Assembly (NCBI GenBank): GCA_017506865.1
Contig: JAFCMP010000066.1
Location: forward strand, 62,001-126,000
Direction of reading: 5' to 3'
Source of the DNA: Tribonema minus
Taxonomy: Eukaryota; Sar; Xanthophyceae; Tribonematales; Tribonemataceae
Length of the DNA: 64,000 bases
Below, piece after piece: positions 337-57,472 of the stretch. Position 1 is the first letter of the stretch. Each line of letters opens with the position of its first letter. Under the pieces are notes generated by a model that searched no databases, had not been told where the DNA came from, and was given only the letters and a program-made list of their open reading frames with translations. The position numbers were made by a program, and so were the translations under genes.

Positions 337-383
337 ATGGTATCAGGAGCTTACCAGGCTTGGCACCAGGGCAGCGGCCATGG
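337..383 (-). repeat. Donor-edge copy of RRP12 exon 18
   Basis: Near-identical 47 bp copy of 427-473 (exon 18 end plus GTAAGC donor), about 90 bp further into the intron. Confidence 0.85.
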
Positions 384-443
384 TCATGTAATCCATTGAT
401 ATGTAGTATATACCTCATAGTTATAATGGTATCAGGAGCTTAC

Positions 444-567
444 CAGGCTTGGCACCAGGGCAGCGGCCATGGCCATGTAGTTCAGCGCGACGCGCGTGCC
501 TTCCTGAGCGGCGGACTGCGCATCCGCCACGTCCATGTCGTCCGACGGAGCGTCACCGCCCTTGTCC
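444..567 (-). CDS. RRP12: RRP12 exon 18 (last in window)
   Basis: 124 bp, phase 2 to 0: an acidic linker DKGGDAPSDDMDVADAQSAA followed by NYMAMAAALVPSL. Donor GTAAGC. Further 3' exons must lie left of position 1. Confidence 0.85.
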
Positions 568-3500
568 CTGCAGCAACCATTGTCAAATACAAGTTGAGTA
601 CAAGTCAAGTACAAGTCAAGTACAACGAAAGCGATAATATCTGAACAAGGCGTCCAACGGAGCATCACCACCCTTCTCCCTGCAGCAGCAACCATTGGTC
701 AAGTACAAGTCAAGTACAAGTCAAGTACAAGTCATGTAGAAGTGTTCGGCAATGCGCATTGAGACTCTTTCACGATGTTCACAAAACAGGTGTGTAGATT
801 CTGGTTGCAAGTCCATGGGCGTCCACCATCTGGGGTTTCACGCGCCCTGAGCGAGAATTGATGAAAAGTACAAGTGATTGGTGAACATCTGACAAGGCGT
901 CCGTTGAAATGTCGCCGCCATCTCCCTGCGGCAGAAATGATACGATTTGAGTACAGCACAACAAGAAAGTCAGGAACACATCCATGGAGCGTCACTACTG
1001 TACTTTTCGTGCAACAGCGATTGCACGAGTCAAATGCGCGTCAACTTCTGCTCGAGCAGAGTGCAACTTCAAGTCAGTGGCACCTTTCTCCAAATGACTC
1101 TTTACCATGCATTATACTCTTAGGTGATGTTGAGTTCATGAGCGTTGCCACCCCTTCTCACTTGGGCAGCAATCACATGAGTCAGGTGTGAGTCAACGCA
1201 TCAAGTCGAGTACAAGTGATGGTCGCTGCCAAGACCTCCAATAACCTTGATGTTGATGCTTTGCAGCATGACTGATGTGGCTTACGATTGACCATCGCCA
1301 CCATTATAGTTGAAGCGGTGCTATAAACAAATGGTCAGCGCACCCTTAGTTGCTAGATCACAGTCCTAGATCACAGTACGTGAAGCAATGAAGTGCAACC
1401 GCAAAAAAACTCTGTGTAATAAGCACACATACAATCTGTCTGGTAGCTCAACAACCTCAACATCAATCATCTGTACCTTTTTGCGCCCTGAACGGGAGTC
1501 AATGAAAAACGCAATTGAAGTATTTATTTGAAGTTGAAGTCGCACCTGGATGCCTGCGCAGCCGCCGTTGCCTCCAGCAGCTTCTGCAGTAGCCTCTTGA
1601 ACAGCTGGGACAGGAATGGCTTGGGGGACACGCGCGCAAATGCAGCAGCAGCGCCGCACACCGCCAGCACCTGCAATGCGGCCAAGAGCACTAGTTTCAG
1701 GCTTGAGGCTTTTCAATAATCTTGGCACTGTGCACGAAGGGCGTGGGCAGACTAGCCGCAGCTTGTATTTTACAAACGCTAGCTCGGCAGTCACGCGCTG
1801 CTCATCACAACCCCTACCAAACGCAGCAGCAGCGCCGCACACCGCCAGTACCTACAGCGCACCCAACAGCACAGCACTAGGGGTAAGGTCTGAGGCTTTC
1901 GACAATCTTGGCACCCAATACAGCCAGAAAAATAGGAACTAGCAGGAGGCATAGCAACGGGGAGGCAGCTCCGCACACCTACAACACGGCCAAGAGCACT
2001 GGGCGTAAGATGTGAGGCTTGCAATAATCTTAGCACGCAACAAGCCAGAAAAACAGGAACTAGCAGGGGCACAGAATGGGGAGACAGCTCTGCACACCAC
2101 CAACACCTCAAACGCGGCCAAGAGCACTGGGGTTCAGGTTTCAGGCTTTCAATCTTAGCACGCAATGGAGCCAAGAAAGAAGGAAGCAGCAGGGGGCAGC
2201 AATGGGGTGATAGTGGTCCGGTTGGCAGACTACATGCAGGGCAGTCTCACAGGGTAGGATTAGGGTTAGGGTGAAGGTTAGCCTAGTCCTAGGGGCAGTC
2301 TCACATAGACATGAAGCAGACAACCAATCAACTCCGCAAACGGTGGCACGAGGGCTGTGCTTGAGGGCTGGCACGAGGGCTGGCACGAGGGGACCCTAAT
2401 CCAATTCTAACATTGCCCCTAACCCTAACCCTCACTACAGCTACCTAATGCGTTTTCCATGACGGCATGTGCATACATGCACCCACTGCAGAAGGGGGGG
2501 GAAGTTCTACAAAGTACTGTGTCTGCAGCAGCGTGAGGCAGCGGCGGCTCCGCGCGCTGGCGGCGCCTGATGGGGAGCGACAGTAACCCTAACCCTAACC
2601 CTAACCTAACCCTGACCCCAACCTAACCCCAACCCTAAGACGCACAAGACAGGTACATAGTGCCGGTGCTCAAGGACATCAGCAACTAATGCCAGCGAGG
2701 GACGGGGGGGGGGGGCGGGGGGGGGATGCAGCGGTGTAGTGATGCAGGGCACTGCAGTACCAGACGTTGAGTGTGCGCATGCGATGCAATGCAAACCCTA
2801 GCCGTCGCCTCGCCACTGCATATGTACCTTTAGCCCAAAAGCGGCGCTGCTTTTGTGTTCAGCTGCGCGAAGAGCCCGCGGCAGCCTGGCCTTGGTTCAG
2901 AGATCGACAGGATGTACAGTGTATGCCCCTCACCCTGCCCCTTACATGTACACTTTAGCTGAGAGTAGCGCGTCCCGCTTGCCCAGCTGCATGAGGGCCT
3001 CAGAAACCCTAGCCCTAGTGAATACTGCACAGACCCTAGCCCTCTCCCTGCCCTGCATAAATGCATACCTTGTCGAATCCAAATAAGGCGCGTCCTTCTT
3101 ACCCAGTCGTGCAAAGAGCGAGCCGCAGCCTGGCCCAGGTCAACACGTCAAAGAAGATGTACTTTTTATTAATTCTCGCTCAGGGCGCGATGTACTTTGT
3201 TGATTCCAGCCCTCTCCCTACCACATAGTTCGAAGTACAAGTACATAAGCGGGGAGGCAGATGGACGAGGACTTCGAGGGGGGGGGGTGGCCATATGGCG
3301 ATGTCGTTGAGATGATCGCCAATGCGCATTGAGACTTTCAAGGTGTTTACAAAGACACATGTAGATTCTGGTTGCAAGCTGGACCTTCATCATCTGGGCT
3401 TTTTTGCGCCCTACGCGAAAATTAACAAGAAGTCAACGTACGTGCGCACCTTGTCATCTGAAAGAGGCGCGTCCTTCTTGTCGAGCTGCGCAAACAGCGC

Positions 3501-6500
3501 GGGCAGGAACTTGGTGCTGGTTGCCGAAAGCGCGCGCAGCTCCTCCTGTTGAGCGGTGCCACGCGACTCCGCGCCAGCGATCAGCGCCTGCAGCCCGTTG
3601 CACACCTGCGAGAACAAGAGCGCGAGGAGCATCCGATTCTTCAATGTTGAACTGTTTGCAGAAGTGAGCTCTGCATGCTAGCGATCAGCGCCTGCAGCCC
3701 GTTGCACACCTGCAAGCGCGACGAGCGTCGGTGAAATATACTTTGCAGCACAAACATGAAAGGGCATTGGCCAATGGCGCCACCTGATGCACTCAGTTCG
3801 CTCAATGACTCACTTGCAGACTCGCCCCTGGAAGTACGCCGGGGTAGTGCGCATCTTTGTGTGGCGCTGGCCAGCACCGACCCCGTTCGAAGAACTCATT
3901 TACTTGATGGCTCAGTCACAGACGCACCTCTGCAACTAGAAGTTACTCGCTTGTTTACTCAGCCGAAGACTCATTCACTCATTTACTCAGTTGCAGACTC
4001 ACCTCTGTGAGTATGCCGGGATACCTCACGTCCTGCATGACGTTAGCCAGCGCACGGGTGCGGGTAGAACTCATCTACTCATGTACTCAGTCGAAACGTC
4101 ACCGTTGCGAGAATGCCTGTGTATCTCGCGTCCTGGAGAACACATCAACTCAATGACTCGACTCAGTCACAGGCGCACCTCAGCAGGTAGGACTCATCTA
4201 CTCATGTACTCAGTTGCAAGACTCACCTCTGCAAGTATGCCGGGATACCTCACATCTTGCATGGCGTTGGCCAGCACCGGCGCGAGCGGGCCGAATGCGC
4301 TGGCCACGTCCGTGGGCGCTGCGCAGAAGGCAGGGAACAGGCCCCACACCTAGCAACAAGAGTGGCAGCATACAACATCAGAAGCGAATGCCTCCAGCTG
4401 CAAAGTAACAGGAATCTCAGTGTACTTCGAAGTAAACTTGAAAATGTTAACGCATTGTGGGCGCAGAAACAGGCCCCGCACCTACACAACAAAGATAGAA
4501 CGGCAGCATACAACATCAGAAGCGAATGCAAGGCCTTCCAGCTCCATGGTAACAAAGAATTTCGATGTATACTTCCATCTGTAAGCAAATGTGGGGCGCA
4601 CAAACAGGCGCCACACCTGGCAACATGATCAAAGAGCAGCAGCGTACAACATCAGAAGCGATAGCAAGGCCTTGCGGCAAGACCTTGCCGCTGCAATGCG
4701 TCAAGAAAATCAACAAAATACCTTTACTTGCAGATTGGTGGGTGCAGACTGGTTTCCGCTGCAAAGTGTCAAGCACGATCACACACCATTTTACGTACAA
4801 GCTGGTGGGTGCAGACTGTCGCAATGACGTCTCAGTTCGATATGTTCTGTCAATGACTGCCATGAGATTTAGGGCCAGGGTTAGGGTCAGGGTTAGGGTT
4901 TGTGATGGTGCACACGAGGTAAGGATCAAACGCAGGCTTCCTCGTGTTGCCTACCAGCCACGGCCCTCTTGCGAGCTACTGCCTCATGTTGTTGGCCAGT
5001 GCCTGTCATGCGGACCGTAATGCTAACCCTAACTCGAACTCTAGACCTGACCCTAGCCCCCCATCCCGACCCGCACCTGCAGCTGCTTACCCAAAGTCTC
5101 TCCGCAACAACTGCACACATTCTAGTGCATGCGCCTGTTCCCCGTTTCCGCTGCACAGCGTTGTGAATCATGAGCAGCACAGCAATTTGATGCAGAATCC
5201 GACAAATGCGTCTGCTGCTTTCGCTTCAGTCTCTTTTCTTCTTCGTTTTTTCAGATGTGCTACCAAGAGCTCTGCAGGCCTTGCGATCGGCAAACGTCGC
5301 GGCACGAGCTCCGCTCCAACAGAGTTGAGCGAATCGGTGCTGACACAGGTGATGCACGCTAATTTCTGGCGGTTAGGTTTAGGGTTAGGGTTACGCATCG
5401 CGCGACCGCAAGCGTGCCACAGTGTGCGTGTGCGCGAGAAGCAGTCACAGCGACCTGAACCAGGCCACTAGGCAGAACCTGTTCAGCGCAGACTTACGTG
5501 TCGATAAACTGTTTGAGATGGTATCTCTCTGACTGTCGTGACGTTAGTGAACAGGCAGGATGTGGCACCGCGACCAGTGCCGCGTTCAACTCACATGAAC
5601 TCCAAGAAAACACGAATCCTTACGCAATGACTTCAGAGTTGCTGACTTGACTCACTACTTGCAGATAATGGCTGCAGGGATGAGCACTGGCCTGCTCCTC
5701 AAGACCTGGTTGAACTTAGCCCTAACAATGGTTGCGACTCGAACTGAAATTATCCCCAACAACTAGGTTTGGGACTAGAGCTAGCCCTAATTCGCACCCA
5801 AACCGACGAGCACTGACCTGTTCAACCCTGAGGCTCTGCGTCTTGCCCTCGTTGGCCGTGAGTTTGCCACTCCTTGACACCTGCGCACAGACCGCCGAGA
5901 GATATTGTGGCAATTGTGAAAGCAGCATGCATAGCTTGGATTATATTACATTTGGCGCCTGGTGCTGTGGAATGATATTCGTGCTTTGTTTTGCGCAGGT
6001 GCAGGGAGCAGCACTAACCCTAACCCTAAGCCGCACCGAGAGACTGAAAAGACTGAGGGTGAGCCTCGAAAGCTGCAGTGCTGGTATTTGACCACAAGTA
6101 TGATGACGACACGAGAACGATAACTGGTGAGGCGCTTCACGAAAAGTATAAACGTGAAGTACACACCAAGTACGACAACACACAGGCACACAGTCCAACA
6201 TGTATGCTATAGCAATCTAGACATGCGCCATTGGCGTACGCTAGCATCGTACAGGAACCGGTGAGCACGCGATCACCGTGCAGTACGTAATCATGCTCAA
6301 CACGTGCGTACGATACTACTGTATGTGGCGTCGCTCGGGCACCAAATCCGTACAGTCATCGGCAACACATGCACGCGCATACAGCGCACATGCGTTTTAC
6401 CGTACCGGACCGCAGTGTTTGGCCAACACGACCGAGCGTGGTTGAAGTGCGCCTAATTTCTGATGAAATACATTAGCTTGAAGTTTGACGTGAACCCACT

Positions 6501-9500
6501 AGTGCAGACGCGCGCCTCCGAGCGTGATCGCAGCGTTTGGCCAACGCCACCAGAGTGTGGTGGCAGTGCTCAGTACTTCGGTTCTATTTGGTAATCCAAC
6601 TTGAAGTGTGACGTCAGCCCACTAGTGCAGACGCACTCCTTCATACCTGATCGTAGTGTTTGGCCAACTCCACCAGGCTGTGGTGGAAGTACGGCAGTGC
6701 TCAGTACTTCTTTATGGAGTACTTAAACTTGAAGTGTCACATTACCCCGTACCTGATCGCAGTGTTTGGCCAACTCCACCAGGCTGTGGTGGAAGTACGC
6801 GAGACGCGCAGGGGCTGCCCCCCCATGCTCGCGCAGCAGCGGAATCTGAACGATGGGGAGCAGGGGTGAGGACATTGATAGAGTCAGGGTTGGGGAACTG
6901 AGCAATGGGGAGGGGAAGGGGGGGGGAACGGGCGAAACGAGTGGCAAGACATAGCTTCATGAGCGAGGCGGTGGTGACTCCTACATTTAATCCTTACCCT
7001 AACCGTAACCCTAACCTTGTGCTCCAAGTATCATTCTAGCAGGCGGCCATTGACTTTGACAAGATGAACAAGATGAGTACCTTGGCGTTACCGAAAAATG
7101 AGGGATGCACACTTGAAGTGCTCACTTCAGGTCCGACCATCGCACTCGGAGAGCGCATGACACATCAGCTGCGCCCACTTTGCCTCGGCATACGCACAAG
7201 ACTTGATGCGGCGTACCCGCTTTTCTTCTCTGTTTGCGTACACAACTGCGACCCCCTGTGCCTCCGCCAGCCTGACCTCCGAAACCTGCAACAACATAAC
7301 GACAGCCCAATCAAGCGCGACATGCAGCCACGACCACTGCGCCTGGGGTACCCGGGGGCCGCAGCTGCTGCGTGCCTCTGCTGCCAAAACACCTGACCCT
7401 AACCCTAAGCCTAGCCCTAACCCCTAACCCTAGCCATAGCCATACCTGCCCCTGACTGTCCTAGCGTCACCACACGCTACAGGAGAGTCACCAGCCCTCT
7501 TGACTCAGCCACGCCCATGGTGTTAGGGTTAGGGTTAGGGTTAGGGACGCGGACGCCGCGAACCGCAGCATACCACACTAATTATACCTACCCCGTGCCT
7601 ACCTCCAAATGTATCAACCCTCAATTACAGACACAATGCGACGCACCACACACCAGTCAGGCCGTTTGCTCGGCGGCGCCTACTGCATTGGCGGTGCCGG
7701 CGGGACGCAATGGCAGGACGTCCATTCTCTACATACATAAACTAGCATACATACTCTATAGGGCTCACCAGCCAGGCTCTAGACTCAGCGACGCCGACAC
7801 CCATTTTGTCGGTGGCGGCGGCGGGGCATCTACTCTATACATGCCTCGTTTATACATATGGGGTTCACCAGCCAGGCTCTAGACTCGGCGACACCCATCA
7901 TGTCGGGTGTCCCTGCGGGGAGCAGCAACAGGACGCCTACTCTAACATACCCACGCTATCCTCGATACATACCCACACATACATGCCCGCACACAAACGG
8001 GGCTCACCAGCCAGGCTCTGCTCTCAGCAACGCCCATCGTGTCGGGCGTTCCGGCGGGGCGCAGCGGCAGGACGCCTAGGACGCGCTCCATGCCTACGCC
8101 CTCAATGGCCAGGCCCAGCGCCTGCACGTCAGCAGAGGCATAGGAAATGTCATCAAGGCGCCAGAATGCTGTGCAAGAGCAGTGCTTGACAGCTCAAAGA
8201 TGCATGAGGGCTGCTTTTGAGCTCATGTTGCAGTGAACAAATTGGCGGTATGTGAGGCGTTGAAGGACAATCGAGGCGCCAGAGCACAGTGCGCCGTATG
8301 CACGTCAAACTCACCCTACACTGCAATTGAGGAGTGGCAAGGCGCACGAGAGCTTCTTTTAAAGCATGTGCTTCACAGTATGTACTTCGAAATACCTCGG
8401 TGCATGTCTGGCCACAACGCGCGCCCGGCTTTGCAATACACATAAGAAAAAATATGCTCCCATGCTTCGCTCTCGCACCGACAAGGCAGGCAGCAAGAGC
8501 TTGGTGCCCAGGTCGAAGTGGCGGCTCCCGCTGTGGCGGCACGCATGAATGTCTGCTGCACCAACTTCAACCGCAATTCTGCCAAATTCTGAACCTGACG
8601 GCGACCCTGACCACGACATACGGCAACGGGCACATGTCACAAGCAAGAGCACCTTTTTACAGTAAAAGCTCCCAAATGCTGACTTGACTGCTACCTGAAA
8701 CGGCACTAACTTCAATGACTCAATGACCGAAGCTGTGCTGCACGGCAGTGTTGCTGGCAAGGGCATAGTGACGTACGTCACAGAGTGTCCCACGTGGACT
8801 GGCACTGCTGTCATGGCACTGAAGCTACCTTTAAACTGACGCAAGCCCTTCGGATGCGACACACTACCCATGTAAGTGTCGATGCATACATTCATTGAGC
8901 GCGTGCAGTAGCTGCAGGTGTTTCGTATGGTGCAACTGTCAGTGCGCACCTCATTGAGTGCTGGCAGGGCTCCCGCTGCTGCTGTAGCTGCTTAGAGTTA
9001 GGGTTGGGGTTAACCCAAGCGTAGGGATTAGGTAATTAGGGCTTACCTAATCCTAACCTGATGGCAACCCTTCACAATTTCGACTTTGGTTCGCATAACT
9101 ATCGATGCATACTGTACCTCATTGAGTGCTGGCAGCACTCCTGGCGCTGCTGCTGCTTGGGGTTACATAGGGTTAATCTAACCCTGATTTTAAGCTGATG
9201 GTAACCCTTCAATTTCACTTTGGTTTACGTAACTGTTGATGCATCCCTCATTGACCTCCTGGCGCTGCTGCTGCTTAAAATTAGGGTTCACCTGACCCTA
9301 ACCCTAACCTCATGGTAACTCGTCAATGTCATATCTGGTTTGTGTAACTGTCAATGCATACCCACCTCATTGAGTGCTGGCAGGACTCTTGGCGCCGCTG
9401 CTGCTTAGGAGTAGGGTTCACCTCACCTAACCCTAACCCTAACCCTAACCTGACGGTATCCCTTCAATTTGGACTTTGGTCTGCGCAACTGTCGATTCAT

Positions 9501-12500
9501 ACCTACCTCATTGAGTGCTGGCAGGACACCTGGTGCTGCTGCTGCGGCGGGAATGCTGGCAAGCGCGTCGTGCAGGTCCCCCAGGCCCTGCATATAATGG
9601 CAAACAACACCATGTAAGGCGGGTACGCAAAGGGATTCACGAAGCAACGGTGTGGTCCGATAGAAAATTAGTTACGCAGACCTGCAAACATGACGCATAC
9701 GGAAGGTGAGCAAAAGCTTGGCGCTGCTGCTGCGGCGGGGATGCTGGCAAGGGCATCGTGCAGGTCCCCCAGGCCCTGCAAATGATATCGACCAATGACA
9801 CGTGAGGCGGGTGCACAAAGGGATCCACAATGGTATGGTAAAGTAGCAAGATTAGGCACATAGGCAAAAAAAAAACAACAAGACCTGTAATAAATGTGAG
9901 CAAACGGATCTCTAGAGCGACGCTGTGGTCTACCCGTGTGATCAGGCTGGGTCAAGATCAGGATTGTGAGCAACGTCAACCCTCAGTACAGGACGCCATG
10001 AGTCTGACAGACACTTCAGAGTATCCGCACACCTTTCATGCATCAGAAGCCCGGCAATTAACCATAAAACCAAAGCCCGCACCTTGAGAGCAGAGTGGCG
10101 TTGTGCTATGAATCAGCAAACTACTACTTGGTCCACTTCAAGAAAAAAATGGATAAGGGGAGAGGCTCGCGAAAATCAACAGGCTGTCAGTCAGCAGCGC
10201 GGGTCGCGCACCTTGAGAGTGGATGAGAGTATGGGGTAGGACGCGCTGCGCAAGTGCAAGAAGAGGCGCCCCAGCAGTGGCAGTGCCTTGGGCCAGGCCT
10301 TCTGGTACCTGAGAAAGGCACACACGGGAGGGCGGACGGGGGGGTAAGCAAGACAGTGTGGGTGTGTTTGCAACTAAGTATGCTCTCGGGGGGGGGGGGG
10401 GGGGGGGGGGGGGGAGGGCAGGGTCATGAGAGAGTGCAAGACATCAGCAACAAATACCAGCAAGGGGGGGGGGGAATGGGATGCAAAGGTTTAGTGGTGC
10501 AGGGCACTGCAGTGCAAGTCATTAAATGTGGGCGTGCCCGCAAGTGAGACGCTGTGTGCGCGTGCTTTGCAGATGGCATCCGTATACTAAAAACTTGAGG
10601 TGTACCTCTTGAACTACATACAACGCATACTTTTTAAAGTGACGCGACAACAGCCAGTTCTAGTGGGAAGGCACAAGTGAGGATGCGTACAAGCCAGTCA
10701 CGGCTGAAGTCAGGAGGGGGGTTCCGTCGCACATGTGGCCGCAGGGCAGAGTAGCAGGTGTCAGTAAGGGCGGGTGAAACAGTACTCAGGGTGTACACAG
10801 CAACCTAGTCTGCACTGCGCCCTAACAGCTTGCACACTGTTGTTGTAACACAGCACAACAGTCGCGCATTACAAATACACTACAGTACAGTACAGTGTGC
10901 CCTTGGTGTACTGGAGAGCAGGTTGTTCGTAGTGCTCGTTCATCGCCAAATCGCTTTACTACAAGGTGCATGGAGACTCTGGTAGCTAATAACCTGGGCT
11001 TTTTTGTGCCGTATGCAGGTTCAGAAGAGGAGGTGCAATTACCCATGGTTTACTCACTTGTACTGCAGCAGACCCTCCAGTGCACACAAGTACAGTGCAC
11101 CCAGGGTGTACTCACTGCTACTGCAGCAGACCCTCCAGTTCAAACAAAGAGGTGTAGTATACCCATGGTGTACTCACTTGTACTGCAGCAGCGAGCACAC
11201 AGGTACAGTGTACCAAGGCTGTACTCACTTGTACTGCAGTAGACCCTTCAGTGAGCACAGGACCGTCTCCAGGGCGGTGGGCTTGCCCTGTGTGCGGCTT
11301 GCCACTAATCGGTTGGAATTTTTTGTGCCGTATGCAAATTCAAACGAGGAGGTGCAGTGTACTCATGGTGTACTCACTTGCACTGCAGCAGAATTTGCAG
11401 TGAGCAGACGAGTACAGTCTACCCGTTGTGTACTCACTTGTACTGCAGCAGTCCCTCCAGTGAGCACAGGACCGTCTCCAGGGCGGTGGGCTTGCCCTTG
11501 CGCGGCTTGCCCAGCGACTCTGCCATCTCAGAGACCATCTCCTGATCCACCACCGTCTGTGATTGTTGGCAAACACGCAGTACACAGCGCGCATGACCCT
11601 GTGAGTACACAAACACCGGCGCTAGTGGCTCTGCACCCTTGACACGAGTCATCAAGAAATGGGTCACTTTGATAAAGATGGGTACGCAACAACCTGCGTG
11701 AGTTGCTTTGCAGCCTTGACGCGTGTTCACATTAATGTTTACGACGATGAGGAGTATGCGGCGCACTCTGAGTGAGAATCATTCATGTAGTGAACTAGCG
11801 TGCCGGATGCACTGATCACACTGCGCGATGGAGTTTGCCAAGCGCCACTTTGCCGCTTTAAAATCGCAGTTTGTGCTACAGCACTAGATTGATGTTTTCA
11901 GTAGTAGCCAGCGGCAGACTCCTGTCCGGGGACACTCAGCACAACCAGTCTGCAGTTCAGTAGATGTGCACTGCAGTGATTGCTGACGAGGCAGAACATG
12001 GACACGAGAGGGGGGGTTGGCCAAGGTGTGCTTCCATCTCAGAGATCTGTTGGAGGCTCACCAGTGTCTCTCAAAGCAGCTGTGCAACGAAACCTTGGCA
12101 ACATTCATTCGAGCGCTTACGTCCCCGCAAAGCACACCCCTATTAACAGTCACATGAGGTGACCATCTGCCTGGCACGCGACGAAACAATCTGAAAGTGC
12201 ACCGTTCTGTGCACCACAAACACAACAATTACTTCAGGTGATGTGATGTACTTCAAGTAAATTGATGGCTGTACTTCAAGTAAATTGATGGCTGTACTCA
12301 AACTGACAATACGAACGCCTCCGCCCGTACGGTTCTGTGACAGTTGGCGTGCCCTGGATCTTGCTATGCACTCCACCATCTCGAGTGGCTATACTCCAAA
12401 AGTACTGTATTGAGCAGATCGCATATACGCAGTCAACAGCAGGTGCAGACCTCTTTGTAGCGCGAAGCCAATCTCAGCCACGATGCACCAGGTGAAGCAC

Positions 12501-23978: not shown

Positions 23979-24940
23979 GAGCACTTCCCCCACGTTGTTG
24001 ACTGCGCTGGCGCTCTGGAATCGCGGTGTCCTCTTTTCCGTTGCCTCCTGCTTTTGCCTCCACCACTCACACTTCAAGCAAAAAGGTTCAACTTGAGTTT
24101 GAAGTTGCACGGTTGTGTGTGTGCGTGTGGTGTGGTGTGGAAGTGGTAGTTGTTTTACACAGAGCGCTTTGATTTTTGCCGGGATCTTATGGTCTATTAT
24201 TTTTTCTCGATCAGCAGATAGTTCAAATAATCCATTACAGTGCACACCCTTCCTGCGCACGACGAGATTCTGCAGGAACATATATCGTGATGACATGAAA
24301 GAAATGAGACGAGTGGCGTCTCTAGCGCTCCACGTGGGTGATGCTTGAATGACGCAGCGCGCACATAACATTTGCATGTCATTTTTTCGGGTGCACTTCT
24401 GAGAGAGCATAGTGTCCAGATGCAAGCAGTGCACACGAGCGTTCGTTTTTTGGTCGACACCAATCAACAAAGTCCTCACCATTTGCATTGAACTTTCCTT
24501 GACACAATATATTGCTGGTATACGTAGGAATTGTGCAGATCCAGGTATCGAACACGCATTTCTTCAACAAATTCGCGCGCATTCATGGCATGCCAGCAGT
24601 AATGTACCCACTCCTGAAGGAGACTCAGCAGCCCATTGGCTACATGCCCCAAGCATCCCTTCACGTGACGAATCACGTCTCTATTACTGTGATGTGCTGC
24701 CTATAGCCCTACTGAAGTCAGGCAGCCAAAAACACCTTACTAAGTAGCAGGCAAACTGACTGTGAAAGTAAAATCGTGCAAGCTGTATTGCGTGACACAG
24801 CTCTTCTTTCAACCCCCAACGACATCAGCGTCAAAGCTGCTGCACCTCCCTGAGCGGCATCGCAGCAGGAGCTCGCGCTACTCGAGGATCTGCGCCAGGC
24901 ACAGCGAGCCCCTCCAACAAGGTTTTTATCACGCGCCGCT
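23979..24940. promoter_or_regulatory. Divergent intergenic region between RRP12 and the PKS gene
   Basis: About 960 bp separates the two head-to-head start codons, so it must hold both 5' leaders and may be a shared promoter. It is more AT-rich than the exons. I see no TATA box or factor site I would defend. The RRP12 frame stays open into this region to about 24488, and the PKS frame is open back to a TGA at 24851. Confidence 0.5.
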
Positions 24941-24982
24941 ATGGAGCACTACATTGCGGCAGGCACGGAGTCGCTCGTGAAG
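24941..24982 (+). CDS. PKS gene exon 1 (tentative start)
   Basis: ATG to donor GTGAGC, encoding MEHYIAAGTESLVK. The frame is open upstream to a TGA at 24851 (…ELALLEDLRQAQRAP…), so this may be an internal methionine with an upstream acceptor. Confidence 0.6.
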
Positions 24983-27900: not shown

Positions 27901-30900
27901 GACATCGCCAAATGATTCTCTCTCACCCTGTCTTCTATCATCTTGGTGCACCGCGCTGCCCTTTGTTGTTACGGGCTGGCACTTCCGCATGGCACGAAAG
28001 ACATGGCACATTGTGTATCTTTGTCATACATGTATACGGTATTGCTGGCCCATATCAGGAGCGCTCACCGCTCAGGGGGGGGGGGGCGCAACCCCTTCTG
28101 CTGCCCCCATCAGGCGCTGCAGTCGCGGCCACCTCGCCGCCATGATCACGCAATGCTACTCTGTCGGGCCCTCTGATGCCGCTGTCGCGTGACCACGGGC
28201 AAGTCGCTGCTCACACCCTCCATCAAAATCATTGTCAAAATGGCGCTCTGCGGCCGCCCTCTGCTGTCACGTGACCGCGGCAACTCGCGCTGTCTGAATC
28301 TGCCACATGCGACGCCCTTTCCGCTGTCACGTGACCACTTGCTGCTCAGTACTGCCGCGTGTGACGCTTCCCCTGCGCCGTGCGGTTCCAGGACCGCGCC
28401 CTGGCGGAGGCGCTCGCCGCGGAGGAGGCGCAGTCCCCCTCACTGTCCCCTTTGGGGTCCCCACAGCGCGCTCTGTTGCCGCCCTCTGCTGTCACGTGAC
28501 TGGTATATCCAACTCGCTGCTCAAAACTGCCGCGTGTGACGCTCTCTCTGTGGCGCGCGTTCCAGGACCGCGCCCTGGCGGAGGCGCTCGCCGCGGAGGA
28601 GGCGCAGTCCCCCTCGCTGTCCCCCTCGGGGTCCCCGAAGCGCGCCGCCGCGGCGCCCGCCGCGCAGGCCGACTGGGAGGTCGTCAAGCGCAAGCCGCGC
28701 AAGCCCAAGGCGGCGGCGGCGCCGCCGGCAGAGGAGGCCGCAGAGGGGGGGGCTGGGGGGGATGTTAAGGAGGATGGCGGCGCCGCTGCGGAGGTTAACG
28801 GGGGGGCGCAGGAAGGCGCTGCCACTGCCGCAGATGCCGCAGAGAACGGTGAGAGGGAAAACTTGAAGGTGGAGTTGAAGTCAAACATGAAGTTGAACAT
28901 GAAGTTGAAAGTTGGGTGTGGCGGAGAGCAGTGCTCTGCGAGGGGGACTCAGCGGCGGTGGTGAGGGCCGGTGGGACGCAGGAAGGCGCCGCTGCACCAG
29001 GACTGTGATCACAACTGCAAGCAACGTGAACCTTAAACTCAATTTGTCGTTTGGGCAATCATTGAGTCTGAGTGATGATGGTGGTGCTTAGGGGGGGGGG
29101 AAGGGGGGGGGGCGCTGCGGATGCCAAAAGGGGGCGCAGGAGGGCGCGCCACAGCTGCTGCATGATGCAGTGAAGAGCTGGCGCATCGCTACAGACAAGC
29201 ACTGTACATCGGAACTTGATCAGCTGCTTGCGCTGTTTTTGGTGTGCATGCCACTCACTCTGCGCTATCTGCGATGCCAAAATTGTGACAGGCTCGCATT
29301 GATGCTGCCTGAGGTCGCAGCAAGCCTTGTCATACAGCTGCAGAGCGCCACTGCCGTACAGCTAATGAACACACAATCGTGCGTGATCATTGGTCCGGAA
29401 ATGGCGTGCATTCATGAACTCTCGCGAAGGGCACGAAAAACCCCAGGCCGCTGATGCCCAACTTGCGTGAATCCACGTGTACCTTTCAAGAAAGCGTCGC
29501 AAATTGACTGTCAGTGCGCAATGGCAATGAACTTGTGCACCTTCAGGCATGTCACTCACTCTGCCCCGTGTGCGATGCCAAATCCTGCGGCAGGCTCGCC
29601 TTGATGCTGCTTGAAGTCGGAGCGCTGCTGCTGCGGAGCCTGCTGGAATGGCGACGGCGGGCATCAGCAGCACGCGGCGGCGGCCGCAGTCGTGCGCGGC
29701 GTGATCGGGGGGGGGGGGGGTAGGGGCGTTTTTTGAGGCAGGGGTCTCAGGGGCAATAGTAACACGGGAAGTATGAGCATCAGCAGGAGCGGCGGCGGGG
29801 GGGCGTATCACGGGAACAGGGCTGGCTAGAGGTTTGGGGCTGTCAGGTACGGGGGGGGGAGTTTCTGCGCACACAAGGCGCCCCCTACAGAAGCGTGTGG
29901 CAGTGCGGTCCCGGTCCCGGCCTTACTCGCGGACGGATTTGGCGGTGATAGTAATGTGTTTGGCCCCCACAGATTTTGGCTGGTAGCACAGAGACAGTGG
30001 CCCCGTGGGCTCTGAATGGTACAGCGTATATCTGGACGGAAGGGGGGTTTGAGCCCTGTGTGTCCCCTTCGCGCTTTGCTTCGCTTGCACGCGTCCGGTG
30101 CTGAGCGCCCACATTTAGCAGCGGTTTTAGTAGCAGTCGATGGAACTTGATGTTATACTGCAGATTTAGACGCTGTCTCACTGTATGTACACACAGTCTG
30201 CTGCATCATTTCTCTGTTTCAAATGGTATTTTGTCCATTTGCGTCAGAAGGCATGGGGGCTCGACCACCCCCCTCTCTCCCAAGATCGTAGCACCTTTTG
30301 GTCTGGCACGGCAGACGGGCGTGATGTGCATGCCGCCGCATGGAGACCCGTGCCATGGCATATGCATACTGACAGATATGATACTGTATGCGAAGTGCGT
30401 TGCACAGGCCTGCAGGGCTGCCGGCCGGTGCACAACACCAGTGGGCGCTCCAAGTTGTGTGCGTTGGCCTTACCCTCTGACTGTAGGGTCTTGTCGGCGA
30501 TTGTTCAAAAATCATCCAATGATGACAAGTGCTTGCGGCGCTGCGTATGCGTGTAGTATGGCACGTGTACCAGTGCAACACCTTCCAGGTTCAGCACTTG
30601 AAGTAGGCACTCCCTTGAGCCTGGGAGTGGTTTCCAAATGGACTTGTTGTCTTGCGGTGCCTTGCATTTCCTGGCATTGCCTCTGTGTACGATGCATTGT
30701 TCACATATTCAAGAATTGGCATTCTGACAATGATTCTGCATGGACTATGCAGCCTAGTTTGAATCAACGTCGCCCAAGTACCGTATGATGATGATTCAAC
30801 CACCTCCATGTATGCGCCGAGCTACTCATCGAGCAGTTGAATTGAGCCCCCGAAAGATACCCGTTTTTGCTTTGCGCAGAGGCTGTTGCTGTGCGCAAGC

Positions 30901-33900
30901 AAGCTCAGAAGGCGGCGTGGCGCGACTGCCAGAGCATCGGCTGCTGCTGCGCAGTGGCAGGCGGCCTGAACATGGGCATGGTCTCGGATGCGGCTGAGTT
31001 CAGGGAGGCGGTCATTGCACAGCTTGCAGGGGTTTGGCTGCCGATGGTGGTGGCGTCTGCACTGACCCTTGTGCTAGGTAAGCGCTCTACTTCTTTCAGG
31101 CCTTGAGACAACTGCAGGTGTTCATTGACAGCTGCCTCACGGTGCCACCAGCAGCATATCCCCAAATATTCAGCGGTTGAGCCGAGCACGCAGAAGATAC
31201 GATGTGCGCTAGTAACGACAGTTCAGCACCTTAGCAGCAAGTGTTTGGTCACTATCACACATTAATCTGCTCAATTGATATTATTGCTCGCCGTTGAGGC
31301 GCTATGCTCCATGTCAAACTTCAACTTCTGGTCCCAGATCTTTGTTTGATATAGTTGACGTGCCCGAGCTGAGGTCAACTAGCCAAAAGTCATTGATGTC
31401 TGCTGCGGCTCCACCTTGAACTACAAACATGTATTGCCTGCTGTGCTCGCATTGCAGCACTGCTGGTCGTTCGGGGCCGCAAGCGTGAGGAAACTATGTA
31501 CCCAGTGATCATCGGCCTGGCGACGGGCAATCCCCCTTACCGGTGCACTCAGGTCAGCAAGAGCTTGCATGACAGTTTAAGGCAGCCCGCGCTTCTGAAG
31601 CATCGCAGTTGCTTGTTGCTGCTGTGATGTATGCTGTCCAGCAGCGATACATACATACCTCCCTAGCTGATTTCAGGTGTTATCAACTGGGTCGTCGAAA
31701 GTCGATAGTCATGCAGATGTGTGATTATCACAAGGCTGCAACACATGCAGCTGGTGGTTGTTGTGTATGCCATCAACTCTACAACACGATTTTAATCATA
31801 ACAAACCACTGTGCAAACGCAAGTGTCAGAGCGCGACCACAGATGGCGCCTCGATGCGCGTCATGCTTTTTCAAAAGTCGGGTTGCTCACGCAGACAGGC
31901 AGATGTATCGTGCCGAGAAGTACACACTGTTGCTTTCGGCTGTTTGGTCAGCATACTATGCATGAGTGCAAGCGCCCTGCTGCAGTACAAGCTCAACGTG
32001 TCTGCTTGAGCGCATGAGTACCTCGTACTTCTGTTTAGGGGTATATACTGATGGGCTACGCATGAATTACTTCAGCGCAGCGCGCGACCGCCATGTAGGG
32101 TTAGGTCACAGTGGGGGTTAGGGCTAGCGTCAGAATTGAATTCCGGACTCATGATCAGCGCTCAGCAGCATGCCTCTGCGCTGTCCTCACACACGGCGCA
32201 CGCGCGCGGGCAACAGGAACGCGCGTCGTCGGCGGGGGGCTGAGCGCTGTTGACCTAACCCTCACCCTAAACCTCTGTCTGCGCGCACACCGCTCGTGTC
32301 TGGCAGCGGGCACAGAGGGTCAGGGTCAGGGAAAGGGGTGGGGGTAGGGTTAAGGTTGCGTGTGCCGCCATCGAAGGCGCAAAAACTATCGACATTCTTC
32401 CGAATCAGTAGAGTCCTAGACTACTTCTGTCCAGCGTGCCCGTGCATGAGTCCTTGAAGCCCGTGCTGACTTCAATATGCGACGCTCCTCTTGTGTGACC
32501 CCAACATGTGACGCTCCTCGTGTGTGTGTGTGCAGAAGCAAGCGCTGGCGATAGCGCAGAAGGTGCCGGGCTGTGAGTCCGTGAAGCCCGTGCTGGAGCG
32601 CATCTACGGCAACTCGCGCATTGCAAGCCGCTACTTTGCCGTCCCCGACTTTACACCTGACGTGGTGAGTCTACCATTTGGTGTACTTGACTCAAGAGTA
32701 CAGTATCTTTGTGCATCATAGCATCAGGCACCATAGCGGGTACGTGAAAGTGTGTGATCATCGTGCATCATAGCAGGTGCTTGACAACACAGCAATATCG
32801 TACATTGTAGCAGATACTTGAAAGTACAGTGTTATCGTACGTGATAGCAGAGCTTGCGCGTTGCCAGCCGCTACTTTGCCATCCCCGACTCTGTGCCTGA
32901 CGTGGTGAGTCTGCCTTAGTATACTTCACTCGAAATTGCAAAATTATCGTGTATCATAGCAGGTGCTTGAAAGTACAGACATAACTATACTTCACTCAAA
33001 ACTACAGCATGGTCGTGCATCATAGCAGGTACTTGAAAGTGCAGTGTTATCGTGCATCATAGCAGATAATTGAAAGTTCGGCGTTATCGTGCACCATGGC
33101 AGAGCTCACGCATTGCAACGCTCTACTTTTGGCGTGCCCGACTTCACGCCCAATGTGGTGAGTCTGCCTTAGTAAACTTCACTCGAAATTGCAAAATTAT
33201 CGTGTATCATAGCAGGCGCTTGAAAGTACAGGCATAACTACACTTCCCTCGAAAGTACAGCATGGTCGTGTATCATAGCAGGTACTTGAACGTACAGTTT
33301 TATCGTGCATCATAGCAGATAATTGAAAGTTCAGTGTTATCGTGCACCATGGCAGAGCTCGCGCATTGCAGGCCTCTACTGTTGGCGTGCCCGACTTCAT
33401 GCCCGATGTGGTGAGCCTGCCTTCGAAACTTGTGGACGATACGTCACTTGAAGTGCAGTACTATTGTGCATGGTGTACGGGAGCAATGCGGTGCAGCAAC
33501 CGCCCCCCCAACAAACACCCCCCCCCCCCCCCTCTCAGCTGTTAGGTAGAGAGTTCACACATTCTTGCAATCATTCGCACGCTGTCGCCCCCCCTTGGTA
33601 GGCGTCCCCCGAAGACACCCTCTTCTACCCCGCCAATGGCAGCTTCCTTGGTAGGCCAACATCCCCCAGCTGGCAGTGCCCTGTAGCAATACCCCCCCCC
33701 CTCCCTCCTTTTAACTGTCAAAGTAGTAGTTTACACACTCCACACCTCACGCTTATTGTTAAACATTCGCACGCTGCCCCCCCCCCCCTGGCAGGCATCC
33801 CCTGACGACCCCCTGTTCTACCCCGCGGATGGCAGCTTCCAGGTGCCCGTCAGCGCGCGCCTCGACAAGTTCAGGGAGTGCGCGGTGCCGCTCGTCTGCA

Positions 33901-36900
33901 GCGTCGCGCGCCGCGCCATCATGGAGGCGGGACTGCATCCGGAGGTGCGCACGCGTGGTGCATTACTTCAAAGTATATAGTTTGTCAATTGTCCGCAAAT
34001 GTATTCTAGAAAAATACACTGTTGTGACTGCTGCCAAAAACTGCTGAACTGTTATTAATGACTGTTGCAACTGCCATGAATGTTGTAACTAAGGTGTATG
34101 CGCGCCGCGCCATCAAGGAGGCAGGGCTGCACCCCGAGGTGCGCACGCGCCGTGCGATTGAAGAAGTAGAAGAACACTGTGGTATTTGTTATACTGTTGT
34201 AACCGTTGCAACTGCTGCATATGCAGCCTCCTGTGCGCACACCAGCCGACAGGGGCCGTTCGCGCCTAGTTGCTGCAGCAAACAAATCGTACCCCCCCCC
34301 CCCCCTCCCTCCCCCCCGGCCCCTGCTGATGACCCCTTCCTATTGCACGAGGAGGTGGGGGGCTGCACCCTGACGTGCGCGTGCCGCGCTTTGCGGTTCC
34401 GTCCAGAGTATGTGTGAAGTCAGGATGCACAAGACCACTGTTTCGCCCCATGTGGCGGTACACGAGTACAGTCGCGTGCGCGCTGGCCTCTATGGGGTCG
34501 CTTTGCGGTGCACTTGACAGAGCTGCGCAGGGGTCAGATCTTGCGTCAAAATCATTCAGACATCCCAATCTGACTATGACCCTTGCGCATGGTAAAAGTA
34601 GTCGTGCATCAGATTGCTAATGACGCTCCTCAGAACCTGAACAAGCTGGTGGTGGTGTCGAGCACGGGCTACCTAGGCCAGACTTTGCGAGTTTAACTCT
34701 CAATTGGTGATGATGATGTCGTTTTTATAACAAAATGTATTATGACGCTGACTGCGACGCTCCTCAGAACCTTACATTCGCTGGTGTCAAGCACTGGCTT
34801 CCTGGGCCAGACTTTGCGAGTTCAACTTTGAATTGATGACGATAATGTCATATTTCGAGCAGAACGTATGAAAATTGTGATGTTCCTCAGGACCTGAACA
34901 AGCTGGTGGTGGTGTCGAGCACTGGCGTCCTGTGCCCAGTCTTTGCAAGTTCAAATCTCAATCGATGTAGATGAAGATTGCTATTTAAGAACATAAAATA
35001 TAATGATGATTGTGATGTTCCCCCAGGACCTGGACAAGCTGGTGATGGTGTCAAGCACGGGCTTTCTGAGCCAGACCTTGCAAATTCAAAGTTCAATGAA
35101 TCATAATGATGTCGGTTTTCAAACGCAATGCAAAAATCATTCTTATGACGCTCCTCAGGACCTGGACAAGCTGGTGGTGGTGTCGAGCACGGGCTTCCTG
35201 GGCCCCGGCCTCGACTGCGAGATCATCAAGAGGCTGCGCATGAAGCGCAGCGTCGACAGGTCAGCAGTGCTCAGCAATAACACAACGATGTCTGAATGAT
35301 TCAAGTTGAAGTGTCACAACGTTCACATGCCCCGATGCGCATGAAGCGCAGCGTCTACTGGTCAGCAGTGCTCGGCAACAACCCCACAAGGCTTTTGTTG
35401 GCAACTAAGTTGAAGTATTACAGCGATTGCATGCCCCGATGCTTGTCCTGATGCGGCGACACATGCACTGTTGGTTGGGGGCCCATTGCAAGAGTGGTAG
35501 TATGTACATTTGTTGGCAACTCCTGTTCTGACGGAGTCCGTGCTGAGCGCTGCTGTGGAGCATGTGGGGTATGTATCTGTGCTTCTTTTTTGTGTTTTTC
35601 TGTTCTGCCTCTGTACATGCGTCTATGTCGCGCACTGCAGGAGCCTGACAGGGCTCAAGACCTGCGCTGCGGTTATCGCAAGTCTACTACCATAAACACT
35701 TATGTATCGCGGACCATCTCTCACACGTGTGAAATGCATCTGTTGCGTATCTGCATAAACACTTGTGCCGTTCGGCGCAGGAGCCTGACAGGGTTCAGTG
35801 CTGTGCTGCGGCCATGCAGGGTATGTATCTGTACATCTCTAGTGACATTTTGTTCTGTATTTGTACACATGCCTTTGTCACTAACTGCAGGAGCCTGATA
35901 GGTTTCATGGGCTGCGCTGCGGCCATGAACGGCTTCCGCATCGCCAACGACTACGTGCGCTGCCACCCCGGGAAGTTCGCACTCATGGTGGGTGCTGAGC
36001 GCTGCTGCAACCAGTGTCAGCTTAAAACGTGGGTTTCATTTCACACTTATTTTTGATCAGTGCAGCCAGCGTTCCTCGTCAAGCGCTGCGACCAGTGTCA
36101 ACTTCAACATGTGGGTTCCAAATTCACCGCTCTTGATCAGTGCAGCGCGTGAGTGCTCTGTGCGATCATCGAGCGCTGCCACCACTGTAAACTTCAACAC
36201 ACGAGTGCAAGCTCTTAAACACTTTGAATCAGTGCGGTATCATGCTCTCAGGAGCAGCAGAGACGCACCAGAATAGCACACATTCCTGCCACACCTGCTT
36301 TCGCAAGAGAACTGTTAGCAGCTGCACCTGCGAATTTTGTGTGCGTACGAAGGCAGGACGCTGCCAACTTCAACATGTGTTGAGCTGCTGCTGCTGCCGT
36401 ACTGCGAAGTCAAACCCGCGGCGAAAGCGAACATGACTCATGTAAGGTCAGAAGCGTCACAACCATCATCATGTTCAGTTTTCCATCTCGCATGGCATCG
36501 CCCAAGGTTCATGCGCTCCCTTCCCCCCCCCCCCCCCCAACCCCCCCACCCCGCCCCACCCCCCCCCCCCCCCCCCACAGCTGTGCGTGGATCTCTTGTC
36601 CCTGCACACGACACTACCCACAACCTTGTTACATTGCATTTTTTGCCGCCCCTCCCCCCCCCAGCTGTGTGGTTTGATGTGTTCACTGCTCCCCACGCAA
36701 TCCCCAGTGTAAATTGTATTGTTCACCGCTCCTCCCCCCCCCCCACAGCTGTGTGTGGAGCTCTCGTCCGTGCACACGACGTTTGAGGACAACATCAACG
36801 ACGCCATCCTGCACGCAATTTTCGCGGATGGCTGCGCGGCATGCGTGCTCTCCGGCGAGACCGCGTCCTCCGCCGCCAAGGTGAGCAATGCTCAGCAGCA

Positions 36901-39900
36901 TGCGGGTTATTGTTTACAATACAATAGGATTAGCTTGAAAGTTAAGGCGCTATCAAAGCGCACGTCTTTATGTCAGTTGGTGCCAGGGCACACTGGCCAT
37001 CGTTGACGTTCACGCGAATTTCATGCATGGCACGGAGGATGGCATTACGCTCACCCCACCTAACCGTAACCCTACTTTATCAACTTCAACCAGATCAACC
37101 AGATGCGCAGTTGTGTGATCAAACGGGCATAACACCGTAAGATGTCAAATGCGTCTTCATTTGTTGTTGTCAGGGCACATTGGCCATCGTCGACGATCAC
37201 GCAGAGCTCATGGAGGGCACGGAGGACGGCATCACGCTGGACATCAACCCCAACGGCATCTCGTGCACGCTGTCCAAACACCTCCCCTCGTACATCGCCA
37301 AGCACATGGGCGGCTACGTCGACTCGTGGCTGCGCAAGCACGGTGAGTGAGTGAGTGAGTGAGTGAGTGAGTGAGTCAATGAGTGACTACAATCAAGCAC
37401 GTCCCCTTGTACATTGTCCAGCACATGGGCGGCTAGATGGTATCGAGGTGCAAGCATGGTGAGTGAGTGAGCGATTGAGTCAGTGAGTGAGTCAGTGAGT
37501 ACCTGATTGGGCTGCATTTGCGGGGAAAATTGGATGTGCTGCTGGCGCTGTAGAGCGCCTGAGACAGCTATGTACATATGGATTGTTGGTCATTCAGGTT
37601 GAATATCACTTGAAATTGGAGTGTTGTTGTGGCGCTCGTGTTGTGCTGAGTTGGCGTTCTCAACGCCACTGTGTTCTCGCTCGTGGTTGCTTGCAGCACC
37701 GCGGTGCAACAGCGGTCACAACTTTTCAATGCTCTTCATGCGTGCCGCCGGCGCTTTCTGTACAGTGTACATGCGCTTACCCGGTATGCTTCCGAGATCT
37801 ATGACAGCTTTGCCTCTGAGCCGTATGTATGTACCATGCATGCAGCGCATGTACCATGCATGCGGCGCTGAGTCGCATGCACCGACACATGTGCGCCACT
37901 GTAACACTGCTTCCTCTTCATGTATGCAGCGCCAAGCCGTGGTGACGTTGGCTTCTGCGCTTTGCACCCCAGGGGCCTCATACCTTGAAACATGCATCGA
38001 TTATCGTACTTCTATATGCTAATCCCACCCTCTTGTCATGTATGCAGCGTTGAGCCGTGGCGGCGTTGACTCTGGGGGCCTCATTCCTCGAACATTCATC
38101 GATTAGTAATCCGATTACTACACGTACCCACTCCCCCCCCTCGCCATGTATGCAGCGTTGAGCCGTAGCAACGTTGACTATGGGCGGTGCACCCCGGGGG
38201 CCTCATACGTGGAAAAATGCATTGATATGGCAATCTGATTACTGCGTTGAAAACATGCATCAACCGCTACACTTGTGGGTACTTCTGTATGCTTACCTCA
38301 CCCCCCTTGCCATTTGTGCAGCGTTGAGCCGTGGCGATGTTGACTTTTGGGCGGCGCACCCGGGGGGCCGCCGCATCATTGAAGTACCTCGAAGAATGCA
38401 TGGATTACTATACTTCTCCTTCTATATGCTAACCTCACCCCCTCGCCTCGTACATATGCAGCGTTGAGCCGTGGCGATGTTGACTTTTGGGCGGTGCACC
38501 CCGGTGGCCGCCGCATCATTGAGGAGGCGCAGAACGGACTGGGCCTCACTGAGGACCAGACGGCTGACTCCTGGGCCGTTCTCAATGAGTATGGTAACAT
38601 GCTGAGGTGAGAGCTCGAAACAAGGCAATTCAGTACCGTACATGTACTGCATGTCGTTCTACATACCGTATTCATGCGTGTGCTGATTCCTGGGCGTGCC
38701 ACAACGCAACATGCACGTCGAGTAGCTTTGTACAAGCGGAATCCGTGGTAACGTGTTTGGTGCTTACAATACGTGTTGTGGCCCAAAACCCTAACCCTAA
38801 CCCTAACTCTTCAAAGTGCGCATGCAGAATTTGCAGCGCGTGCTTCCTTTTTTATTATCCAAAATATGACACTCGTTTCTCTTCGAAGGCAGCGTACGGT
38901 GCGCAATCGATGATGCAGTTGAACAACTTTGATTCAGTTGACAGCTCTATGAGGTCGTCATAAAAATGCGTGCGCGCCGTCGCCGCCGTCCAAAGCGCAC
39001 GCAGGTGGCGCATCCTGTCGCGCCGAACACCGCCCCTGCACCGTCCGCAGCGATCAATGATTCGATGATTCCATCACGTCTTCGGTGATCAGAGTGCTGA
39101 TCAACATGGAATCCTTTGACGTATGTTGCTCTATGCTGTCGAGCTGTTTCAATTCAATCAAAGCCTCTGGTAGCACCATTGCCGTTGTCTGACTCGCATC
39201 TCGTCTTTCGTGAAGTGTGCAGCCCGGCGTACTCCATGCCGCAAAAAGTCGTGTCTTTGCTGGGACTGACTTCCATCAAACCGTCGTGCACCAGGTTTTG
39301 ATACATTTGAAATAAAAACCTGGACTCGATCGCACAACTGTACAGCAAACCTACTTTGAATTGGCGCACGCCTTGTAGCTTTCCGACTCCCCCCCCCCCC
39401 CCCCCCCCTTCCACTGTGCATGCCCCCCCTACCCCTCTTTCCCCCTGCAGCCCTACCCCCCAGAGTTGTTCGTCACGCCCCCCCTGACTCCCTTGCCCCT
39501 CTGATTCCCCTTCTACCCCCCCGCTTTCCCTCCTGCAGCCCCAGAATAATGTACGTGCTGTCGCGCGTGTTTGCACGCCACCAGGCCGCGCTACCCCCCA
39601 CAGAGCTATTCGTCACGCCCCCCCCCCCCGACGCCCCTGACCCCCCCCAATTCCCCTTCTGCCTCCCCCCCCCCCCCCCGCAGCCCCAGCGTAATGTACT
39701 TGCTGTTGCGCGTGTTTGCACGCCATTACGCGCCGTTAAGTGGTCTTCAATGACCAGCCGCTAACCCCCCGCCCCTTCCCCTTCATATGCCCCCCCCCCC
39801 CCCCCCCCCCCCCCCCTTCCCCCTGCAGCCCCAGCGTGATGTACGTGCTGTCGCGCGTGTTTGCGCGCCACCAGGCCGCGCTTGCCGCCGGCAAGCCCGG

Positions 39901-47047: not shown

Positions 47048-47069
47048 TTACAGCTGCTCCATCCAGATC
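47048..47069 (-). CDS. PSP1 gene last exon (22 bp)
   Basis: A micro-exon: one base completing Arg, then IWMEQL and TAA. CTGCAG acceptor. Matches the end of the PSP1 domain. Confidence 0.85.
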
Positions 47070-57432: not shown

Positions 57433-57472
57433 CAAACGCCACCGCCGCCAAATGGCATCTCGGGGTCCTCCC

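Follow-up and report, generated by a model that had tools for sequence, protein, structure and literature searches.

Why should an intron contain, sometimes several times over, the sequence of the exon edge that borders it? We asked this question of a 64,000-nucleotide stretch of the Tribonema minus genome (positions 62,001 to 126,000 of contig JAFCMP010000066.1; hereafter, the window), in which introns of two unrelated genes, RRP12 on the minus strand and a type III polyketide synthase (PKS) on the plus strand, hold diverged copies of their own splice junctions. An edge copy here is a piece of intron that resembles the beginning of the neighbouring exon with its AG (acceptor-edge, or exon-start, copy) or the end of that exon with its GT (donor-edge, or exon-end, copy). 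The observation is confirmed and extends beyond the window. Judging from the sequence, we put the probability at roughly 80% that these introns grew through short tandem duplications that repeatedly spanned a splice junction.

The contig of the window (C66; 351,478 bases) belongs to an assembly of 158.18 Mb over 554 contigs. A simple codon and splice gene model recovered exons in this genome but called copies as exons too, so we used spliced protein alignment instead for RRP12, PKS, and CCT-gamma, one of the further genes introduced below; exons of the remaining CCT/Cpn60 and adaptin genes are Pfam matches combined with the simple model. RRP12 occupies positions 1 to 24014 of the window and runs on leftwards into stretch L042. 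Its exon series comes from alignment to P0121, a homologue of 1,334 residues with the Pfam domain PF08161 (RRP12), to which the joined exons are 58% identical. The less certain parts are the N-terminal exon (23823-23919, or up to 24014) and the acceptor of exon 16961-17049; four unsupported alignment segments (24437-24500, 24248-24269, 17392-17443, and the last one in L042) were discarded. The PKS gene (30880-39975, 10 exons) was modelled by hand and by spliced protein alignment. The hand model shows 100% identity to an NCBI Tribonema minus protein across 93% of the query, and spliced alignment of the NCBI protein model P0001 gives the same nine introns. At 39920-39975, the PKS reading frame shifts shortly before the conserved C-terminal motif, through either a sequence error or a real change; the homologues P0004 and P0006 finish GVGAEGI(M/L)LR(R)(Q)I(S), and the NCBI Tribonema protein has a run-on tail there.

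We counted copies of at least 33 bits at trusted edges only. On this count, 22 of the 24 introns of RRP12 hold one or more copies of a neighbouring exon edge (58 copies, with part of the gene in L042), as do 7 of the 9 introns of PKS (21 copies). The introns without a copy at this threshold are 21535-23822 and 18751-19631 in RRP12 and 31078-31457 and 31553-32535 in PKS. The two genes together have 79 copies, 62 of them inside the window, where all 25 acceptor copies have AG at the end and the 37 donor copies have GT (35) or GC (2). The copies reach a median of 53 bp into the exon at exon starts (10 to 90% range, 32 to 79) and 52 bp at exon ends (25 to 86), and their median spacing is 150 bp (5 to 95% range, 82 to 285). 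The maximum at one junction is seven, and CCT-gamma with its annotated edge gives eight alignments. A preliminary description of the window, made from the sequence alone, had reported one to seven copies per edge in almost every intron of both genes, each including 20 to 100 bp of exon and usually 100 to 250 bp apart, and our counts confirm the observation.

The arrays of RRP12, all on the minus strand, can be followed along the window from its left end. Exon 444-567 has a donor-edge copy in 337-443 (junction at 354, 98%; three further copies lie left of the window) and an acceptor-edge copy in 568-741. Two acceptor-edge copies of exon 1546-1670 lie in 1671-2153. Exon 3450-3605 is flanked by one donor-edge copy (3060-3449) and one acceptor-edge copy (3606-3716), and exon 4227-4349 by three donor-edge copies (3791-4226) and two acceptor-edge copies (4350-4673). 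Three donor-edge copies each belong to exons 6753-6845 (in 6400-6752), 8008-8121 (in 7487-8007), and 9507-9587 (in 8930-9506), the last of which also has one acceptor-edge copy in 9588-9828. Further donor-edge arrays comprise five copies of exon 11438-11556 (11031-11437), two of exon 12939-13109 (12573-12938), and three of exon 14067-14198 (13490-14066, the nearest copy being 100% identical over 55 bp); the last exon again has one acceptor-edge copy, in 14199-14391. Exon 15735-15878 has one donor-edge copy in 15560-15734 and two acceptor-edge copies in 15879-16234. The series ends with four donor-edge copies of exon 18573-18750 (17839-18572) and two of exon 21388-21534 (20979-21387).

In PKS, on the plus strand, three donor-edge copies of exon 32536-32664 lie in 32665-33431. 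Exon 33795-33944 has one acceptor-edge copy (33569-33794) and one donor-edge copy (33945-34155), and exon 35159-35259 has four acceptor-edge copies that are readable by eye (34617-35158) and one donor-edge copy (35260-35442). Acceptor-edge copies also precede exons 35891-35987 (two, in 35551-35890), 36749-36880 (one, in 36563-36748), and 37174-37342 (one, in 36963-37173), and the last of these exons has a donor-edge copy in 37343-37500. Four acceptor-edge copies of exon 38462-38606, again readable by eye, occupy 37913-38461, and two of exon 39829-39975 occupy 39447-39828.

Ten CCT/Cpn60 genes from a whole-genome Pfam search, together with RRP12 and PKS, made up a set of 12 genes with 86 exons, in which copies were catalogued at trusted edges only (67 acceptors and 62 donors) and side counts used every exon. 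Partial matches beside full exons were already present in the Pfam match list (on C51, query positions 52-88, 53-81, and 51-147). Across the 12 genes, we obtained 155 alignments of exons to their own flanks, compared to 3.5 per replicate in a control that aligned these exons to other genes' sequence, and no self-pairs in a Markov shuffle (one per gene). The alignments included 134 edge copies, and all 55 exon-start copies were upstream and all 79 exon-end copies downstream, with none on the wrong side. The other 21 alignments are interior and reach neither edge; 11 of them involve exons of which an edge is untrusted, and for the remaining 10 (9 downstream, 1 upstream) both edges of the exon are trusted. 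Copies were borne by 25 of the 67 trusted acceptors and 29 of the 62 trusted donors. Under the same thresholds, eight adaptin loci (26 exons, with 14 trusted acceptors and 18 trusted donors) yielded 19 edge copies and 5 interior alignments, against 1.0 in the control. The 14 exon-end copies were downstream and the 5 exon-start copies upstream, with no exception, and only three of these loci contributed copies. When CCT-gamma was re-analysed with its annotated exons, 18 of 18 copies fell on the expected side. Pooling the 12 genes and the adaptins, 153 of 153 copies are on the expected side. The strict ordering first described is therefore real, but it is in itself no sign of selection, because a head-to-tail duplication leaves the true edge attached to the remainder of its exon and the order follows from this geometry. 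It also implies that duplication took place in situ and excludes dispersed copying.

The orientation and size of the repeats give the same picture of local tandem events. In 20 genes and loci, 349 pairs are direct and 2 are inverted; among near-identical pairs, 200 are direct and 14 inverted, and 11 of those 14 are plain palindromes at offset 0. Unit length has a median of 149 bp over 229 adjacent pairs, with 84.7% at 205 bp or less, and the distribution drops off above about 205 bp, which is near the nucleosome repeat length. No in-frame bias of unit length is clear (spacing modulo 3, 48, 41, and 37). Recent arrays of whole units are found in L040 (3431-3962, 151-bp unit, 97%) and L030 (82-523, 224-bp unit, 98.6%). 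In 34 arrays, the copy nearest the true edge resembled it more than the farthest copy did in 21, the farthest copy resembled it more in 8, and 5 were ties; stepwise growth at the edge predicts that the nearest copies are the most edge-like.

Two other origins for the copies fit these data poorly. If the copies were remnants of whole duplicated exons, mutually exclusive or alternative, then some copies in L039 and L040 that are still open, and were called as exons with AG before and GT after, would be natural examples. However, duplication of a whole exon with both splice sites is not what the copies record. None of 126 copies covers more than 90% of its exon (maximum 76%), and no alignment in the 12 genes or the adaptins spans both edges, which leaves such an origin very improbable. 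Hardly more credible are mobile elements resembling introners or an artefact of assembly. Introners are dispersed repeat families that carry splice sites and create new introns in intron-rich algal genomes, and they are known in other algae, whereas the Tribonema copies are local exon edges. A genome search with ten exon pieces (40 of 56 candidates scored) gave 50 matches, of which 10 were self, 9 were local edge copies, 1 was a paralogue, and 30 were weaker (67 bits or less). Among the candidates scored, there was no second genomic copy of the ten dense-gene exons tried and no cross-locus family; similar sequence across unrelated introns was likewise not found in this comparison, which covered ten exon edges against the genome. 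As for an artefact, both haplotypes are retained in places by the assembly, as in haplotigs C90 (L053) and C179 (L054), which are 95.6% identical over 10 kb; in the compared 10 kb, no edge ladder was recognised in either. The median pair divergence of 14 to 23% in genes that have any pairs would nonetheless be unlike assembly errors, and two NCBI protein models were recovered. At L053 3052-3978, there is also a dense tandem array whose steps measure about 66 to 70 bp, present in the other haplotype (L054) as well, and kinase matches suggest that C144 and C223 are a further haplotype pair.

Are copies more common at exon edges than elsewhere? A rotation test using pairs 50 to 400 bp apart suggests that they are. 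In the 12 genes, 63 of 95 clusters touch a true exon edge compared to 36.7 on rotation (maximum 52 in 2,000 rotations), and in RRP12 and PKS together, the figures are 35 of 44 and 18.4. Gene by gene, p was <0.05 only for RRP12, PKS, and L034; singly, L036, L037, L039, L040, and L041, where exon annotation is incomplete, did not reach this level, and four of the 12 genes have only zero to two clusters each. Part of the excess must be due to ascertainment, since every edge pair includes one partner under constraint. Duplications might even be spread evenly across non-coding DNA, with edges seeming special since the constrained exon half stays recognisable for longer. The partner of an edge copy stays fixed as the two diverge and that of an intron copy moves, which would bias detection in this direction; 9 of the 44 RRP12 and PKS clusters touch no known edge, although 2 of the 9 (13666-13851 and -530 to -290) are inside known edge arrays; and background pairs do exist, at 0.32 per kb in 30 kinase loci and 0.1 per kb at 41 to 61 kb of the window. 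Given the number of clusters that touch an edge, and given that self-pairs at 69 to 75% identity are detectable, so that pure-intron pairs of like age should show, we consider an even spread possible but somewhat unlikely.

The way in which the copies have decayed bears on whether they serve any function. Mismatch between copies and their true edges is 11.6% at the first codon position, 9.1% at the second, 19.7% at the third, and 25.9% in the intron part. A neutral copy of a constrained exon would differ from it by about t at constrained sites and by up to 2t at free sites, and the exon mismatches fit this expectation roughly. Stops number 11 in 1,846 codons, compared to about 13 expected from 493 single changes, and of the 132 indels in exon parts, 113 are frameshifting (some indels are perhaps misplaced by the aligner). 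The splice dinucleotides are intact in most copies: AG in 47 of 51 and GT in 68 of 75, plus 5 GC. An initial sample centred on the junction had 6.0% mismatch (15 of 252) at the dinucleotides, less than at the first or second codon position, which hinted at selection on the splice sites of the copies. With junction-independent detection, in which the query begins 12 nt inside the exon, this was not upheld, as the mismatch was 7.1% (16 of 224) at the dinucleotides and 9.2% (72 of 784) at the first two codon positions combined, a difference that is not significant (Fisher p 0.42). Among the 112 copies of that sample, 102 carry a dinucleotide viable for splicing. Scored with a position weight matrix trained on true sites, 54 of 126 copies equal or exceed their own true site, and the mean donor score is 7.34 for copies, 9.52 for true sites, and -1.26 for any GT. 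The trusted acceptors of the 12 genes have a C-rich pyrimidine tract, with the consensus CCCCCCCCCTCGCAG.

These scores and the viable dinucleotides are what would be expected if the inner sites were used, in nested stepwise splicing or as decoys that tune splicing, and the copies were kept by selection. We find this improbable, since the junction-independent difference is small, stops are at the neutral level, frameshifts are common, and some genes of the CCT complex have hardly any tandem pairs. The earlier statement that copies keep plausible splice dinucleotides thus holds for most of them, but special retention is unsupported. The dinucleotides are neither specially retained nor purged, and the copies look neutral; the dinucleotides seem to persist because the copies are young.

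If the copies are neutral, the introns should be able to grow around them without effect on the protein, as the preliminary description had proposed and as the following data support. Between the true edge and the outermost copy lie 35.3% of intron bases in RRP12 and 42.7% in PKS. The introns of P0001 were recovered, and P0126, the NCBI protein model of CCT-gamma, was reproduced exactly, both with the first donor and the last acceptor. These two annotated proteins appear to use the outermost sites, which stay on intact exons and so leave the protein unchanged. The Cpn60 paralogues L038 and L039, both plastid-type on our reading, offer a comparison at five common intron positions, where introns total 2,434 bp in the nearly clean L038 (357, 479, 772, 302, and 524 bp) and 6,098 bp in the riddled L039 (2,382, 897, 1,131, 865, and 823 bp). 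L039 has one extra intron. Over 33 introns, length is weakly correlated with copy number (rho 0.32, p 0.07).

Together, the direct local geometry, the position of the copies, their decay at all codon positions, and the unchanged protein models point to the following course of events. Existing introns would undergo repeated head-to-tail local duplications, mostly of 60 to 210 bp, with a tract that crosses the exon-intron boundary. The copy on the rest of the exon would remain the true edge, and the other copy, with its AG or GT, would become part of the intron. Provided that splicing finally joins the outermost donor to the outermost acceptor, the mRNA would be the same, the event would be near-neutral, and the copies would decay without constraint. 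The initial duplications may come from ordinary DNA repair that makes small tandem duplications, or from slippage, and the arrays may then expand by more slippage or by unequal exchange. A constrained exon edge would act as a master copy that does not decay, and edges would in this way hold the longest-lived and youngest arrays.

Genes differ greatly in the number of such arrays. Of the 20 genes and loci sampled, 12 are riddled, with 1.6 to 3.7 tandem pairs per kb, and the other 8 are nearly clean (0.37 or less). Junction frequencies also differ among the first 12 genes (chi-square 32.1, 11 d.f., p 0.0007). CCT subunits of one complex fall among both riddled and clean genes, so expression level alone is unlikely to be the cause. 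A regional cause was considered and rejected, as the stretch beside the clean L032 (L051) has 1.43 pairs per kb and the stretch beside the clean L035 (L052) has none, which does not describe a simple regional block. Across the 20 genes, neither GC content nor telomere-like motifs were significantly correlated with array density, and G/C runs gave p 0.045, uncorrected for four tests. Many interstitial TTAGGG/CCCTAA motifs are visible in the RRP12 introns (2 to 20 kb of the window).

Several observations weigh against growth by tandem duplication. The bimodality of genes is left without explanation by it. Codons with a single change are synonymous in 51% of cases (252 of 493), compared to a neutral expectation of about 43% (a hand estimate from 27.7%). 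The intron part of copies diverges beyond the expected twofold (36% vs 9% in the junction-independent sample), and the identities of exon and intron parts are uncorrelated, both for copies (rho -0.08) and for copy-copy pairs (rho -0.05; 0.16 inside arrays, p 0.08). Exon sequence and intron sequence in the copies do not keep to one clock. In a search reversed to start from the intron flanks alone, 36 of 81 matches had no exon part at the extrapolated place. Finally, only 2 of the 200 near-identical pairs, those in L040 and L030, extend over 0.9 of the offset, with the others at 0.03 to 0.85; full-length conservation has probably been lost in most units, or never existed in them. The reversed search also indicates that part of the discordance between exon and intron parts is ascertainment. 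Gene conversion is a possible contributor, suggested by the uncorrelated identities and by one array (13400-14115) whose spacer and edge relationships conflict by eye, and weakened by the reversed search. A more ambitious proposal is that exon edges are permanent master copies that seed the ladders and refresh them by gene conversion, so that purifying selection on exons would drive intron growth; the many inner sites of nearly equal strength would be tolerated, since splicing them first would leave a shorter intron that has the same outer sites, and mis-splicing would be self-correcting. We regard this proposal as doubtful.

Elsewhere in the window, a further plus-strand gene with low-complexity, Ala/Lys-rich exons can be made out by eye upstream of PKS (24939-28850), with an apparent exon-start copy (28337-28471) before 28512-28645. 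At 41 to 62 kb, 10 long open reading frames have no Pfam match, and 41000-61000 is probably intergenic. An Rfam search of the window returned no matches.

Intron growth is usually attributed to transposable elements and diffuse insertions. Tandem duplication within genes, with resulting intron gain, is already known from vertebrate ATP2A1 and potato RdRp (PMC4974935) and from Drosophila (PMC2891723). In those cases, as in Tribonema, an intragenic tandem duplication is silenced by splicing with signals from the duplicated segment. Our copies are likewise direct and tandem, on the counts of orientation and side given above, and they leave the two NCBI protein models unaltered. The systems differ in that the new intron arises there within exonic sequence, whereas in Tribonema the introns were in place beforehand (each of the five L038 introns has a counterpart at an identical protein position in L039, in this one paralogue pair), the duplication crosses the intron edge, and it adds length and inner sites, many per gene. 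A candidate source of the duplications is the repair of breaks: fill-in by 53BP1-Shieldin-CST-Pol alpha followed by end joining produces small tandem duplications in mouse and human cells (PMC8355091), which are short, direct, and head-to-tail like ours. Those duplications were induced, with overhangs down to 43 bp, and the relevant passages of that paper draw no link to splice junctions. Stwintrons, which are nested introns, also have several donors and acceptors in one intervening sequence (PMC8469720), but there the inner intron breaks a splice signal, and nested removal in Tribonema would be a possibility. Our searches of open-access (PMC) papers turned up nothing that describes dense ladders of this kind, with junction copies in existing introns.

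For Tribonema, these results mean that, in two genes, ladders from one type of event take up more than one-third of the intron length, the event being the copying of a splice junction, and that tandem pairs are dense in 12 of the 20 genes sampled. The ladders constitute a natural set of introns in which up to seven near-copies stand beside the true site, many of them scoring at least as high as that site. They are a caution for gene finders and spliced aligners, given that a simple model called many of the copies exons. How splice sites are chosen, how decoys are tolerated, and how introns grow neutrally would all be testable within this one organism.

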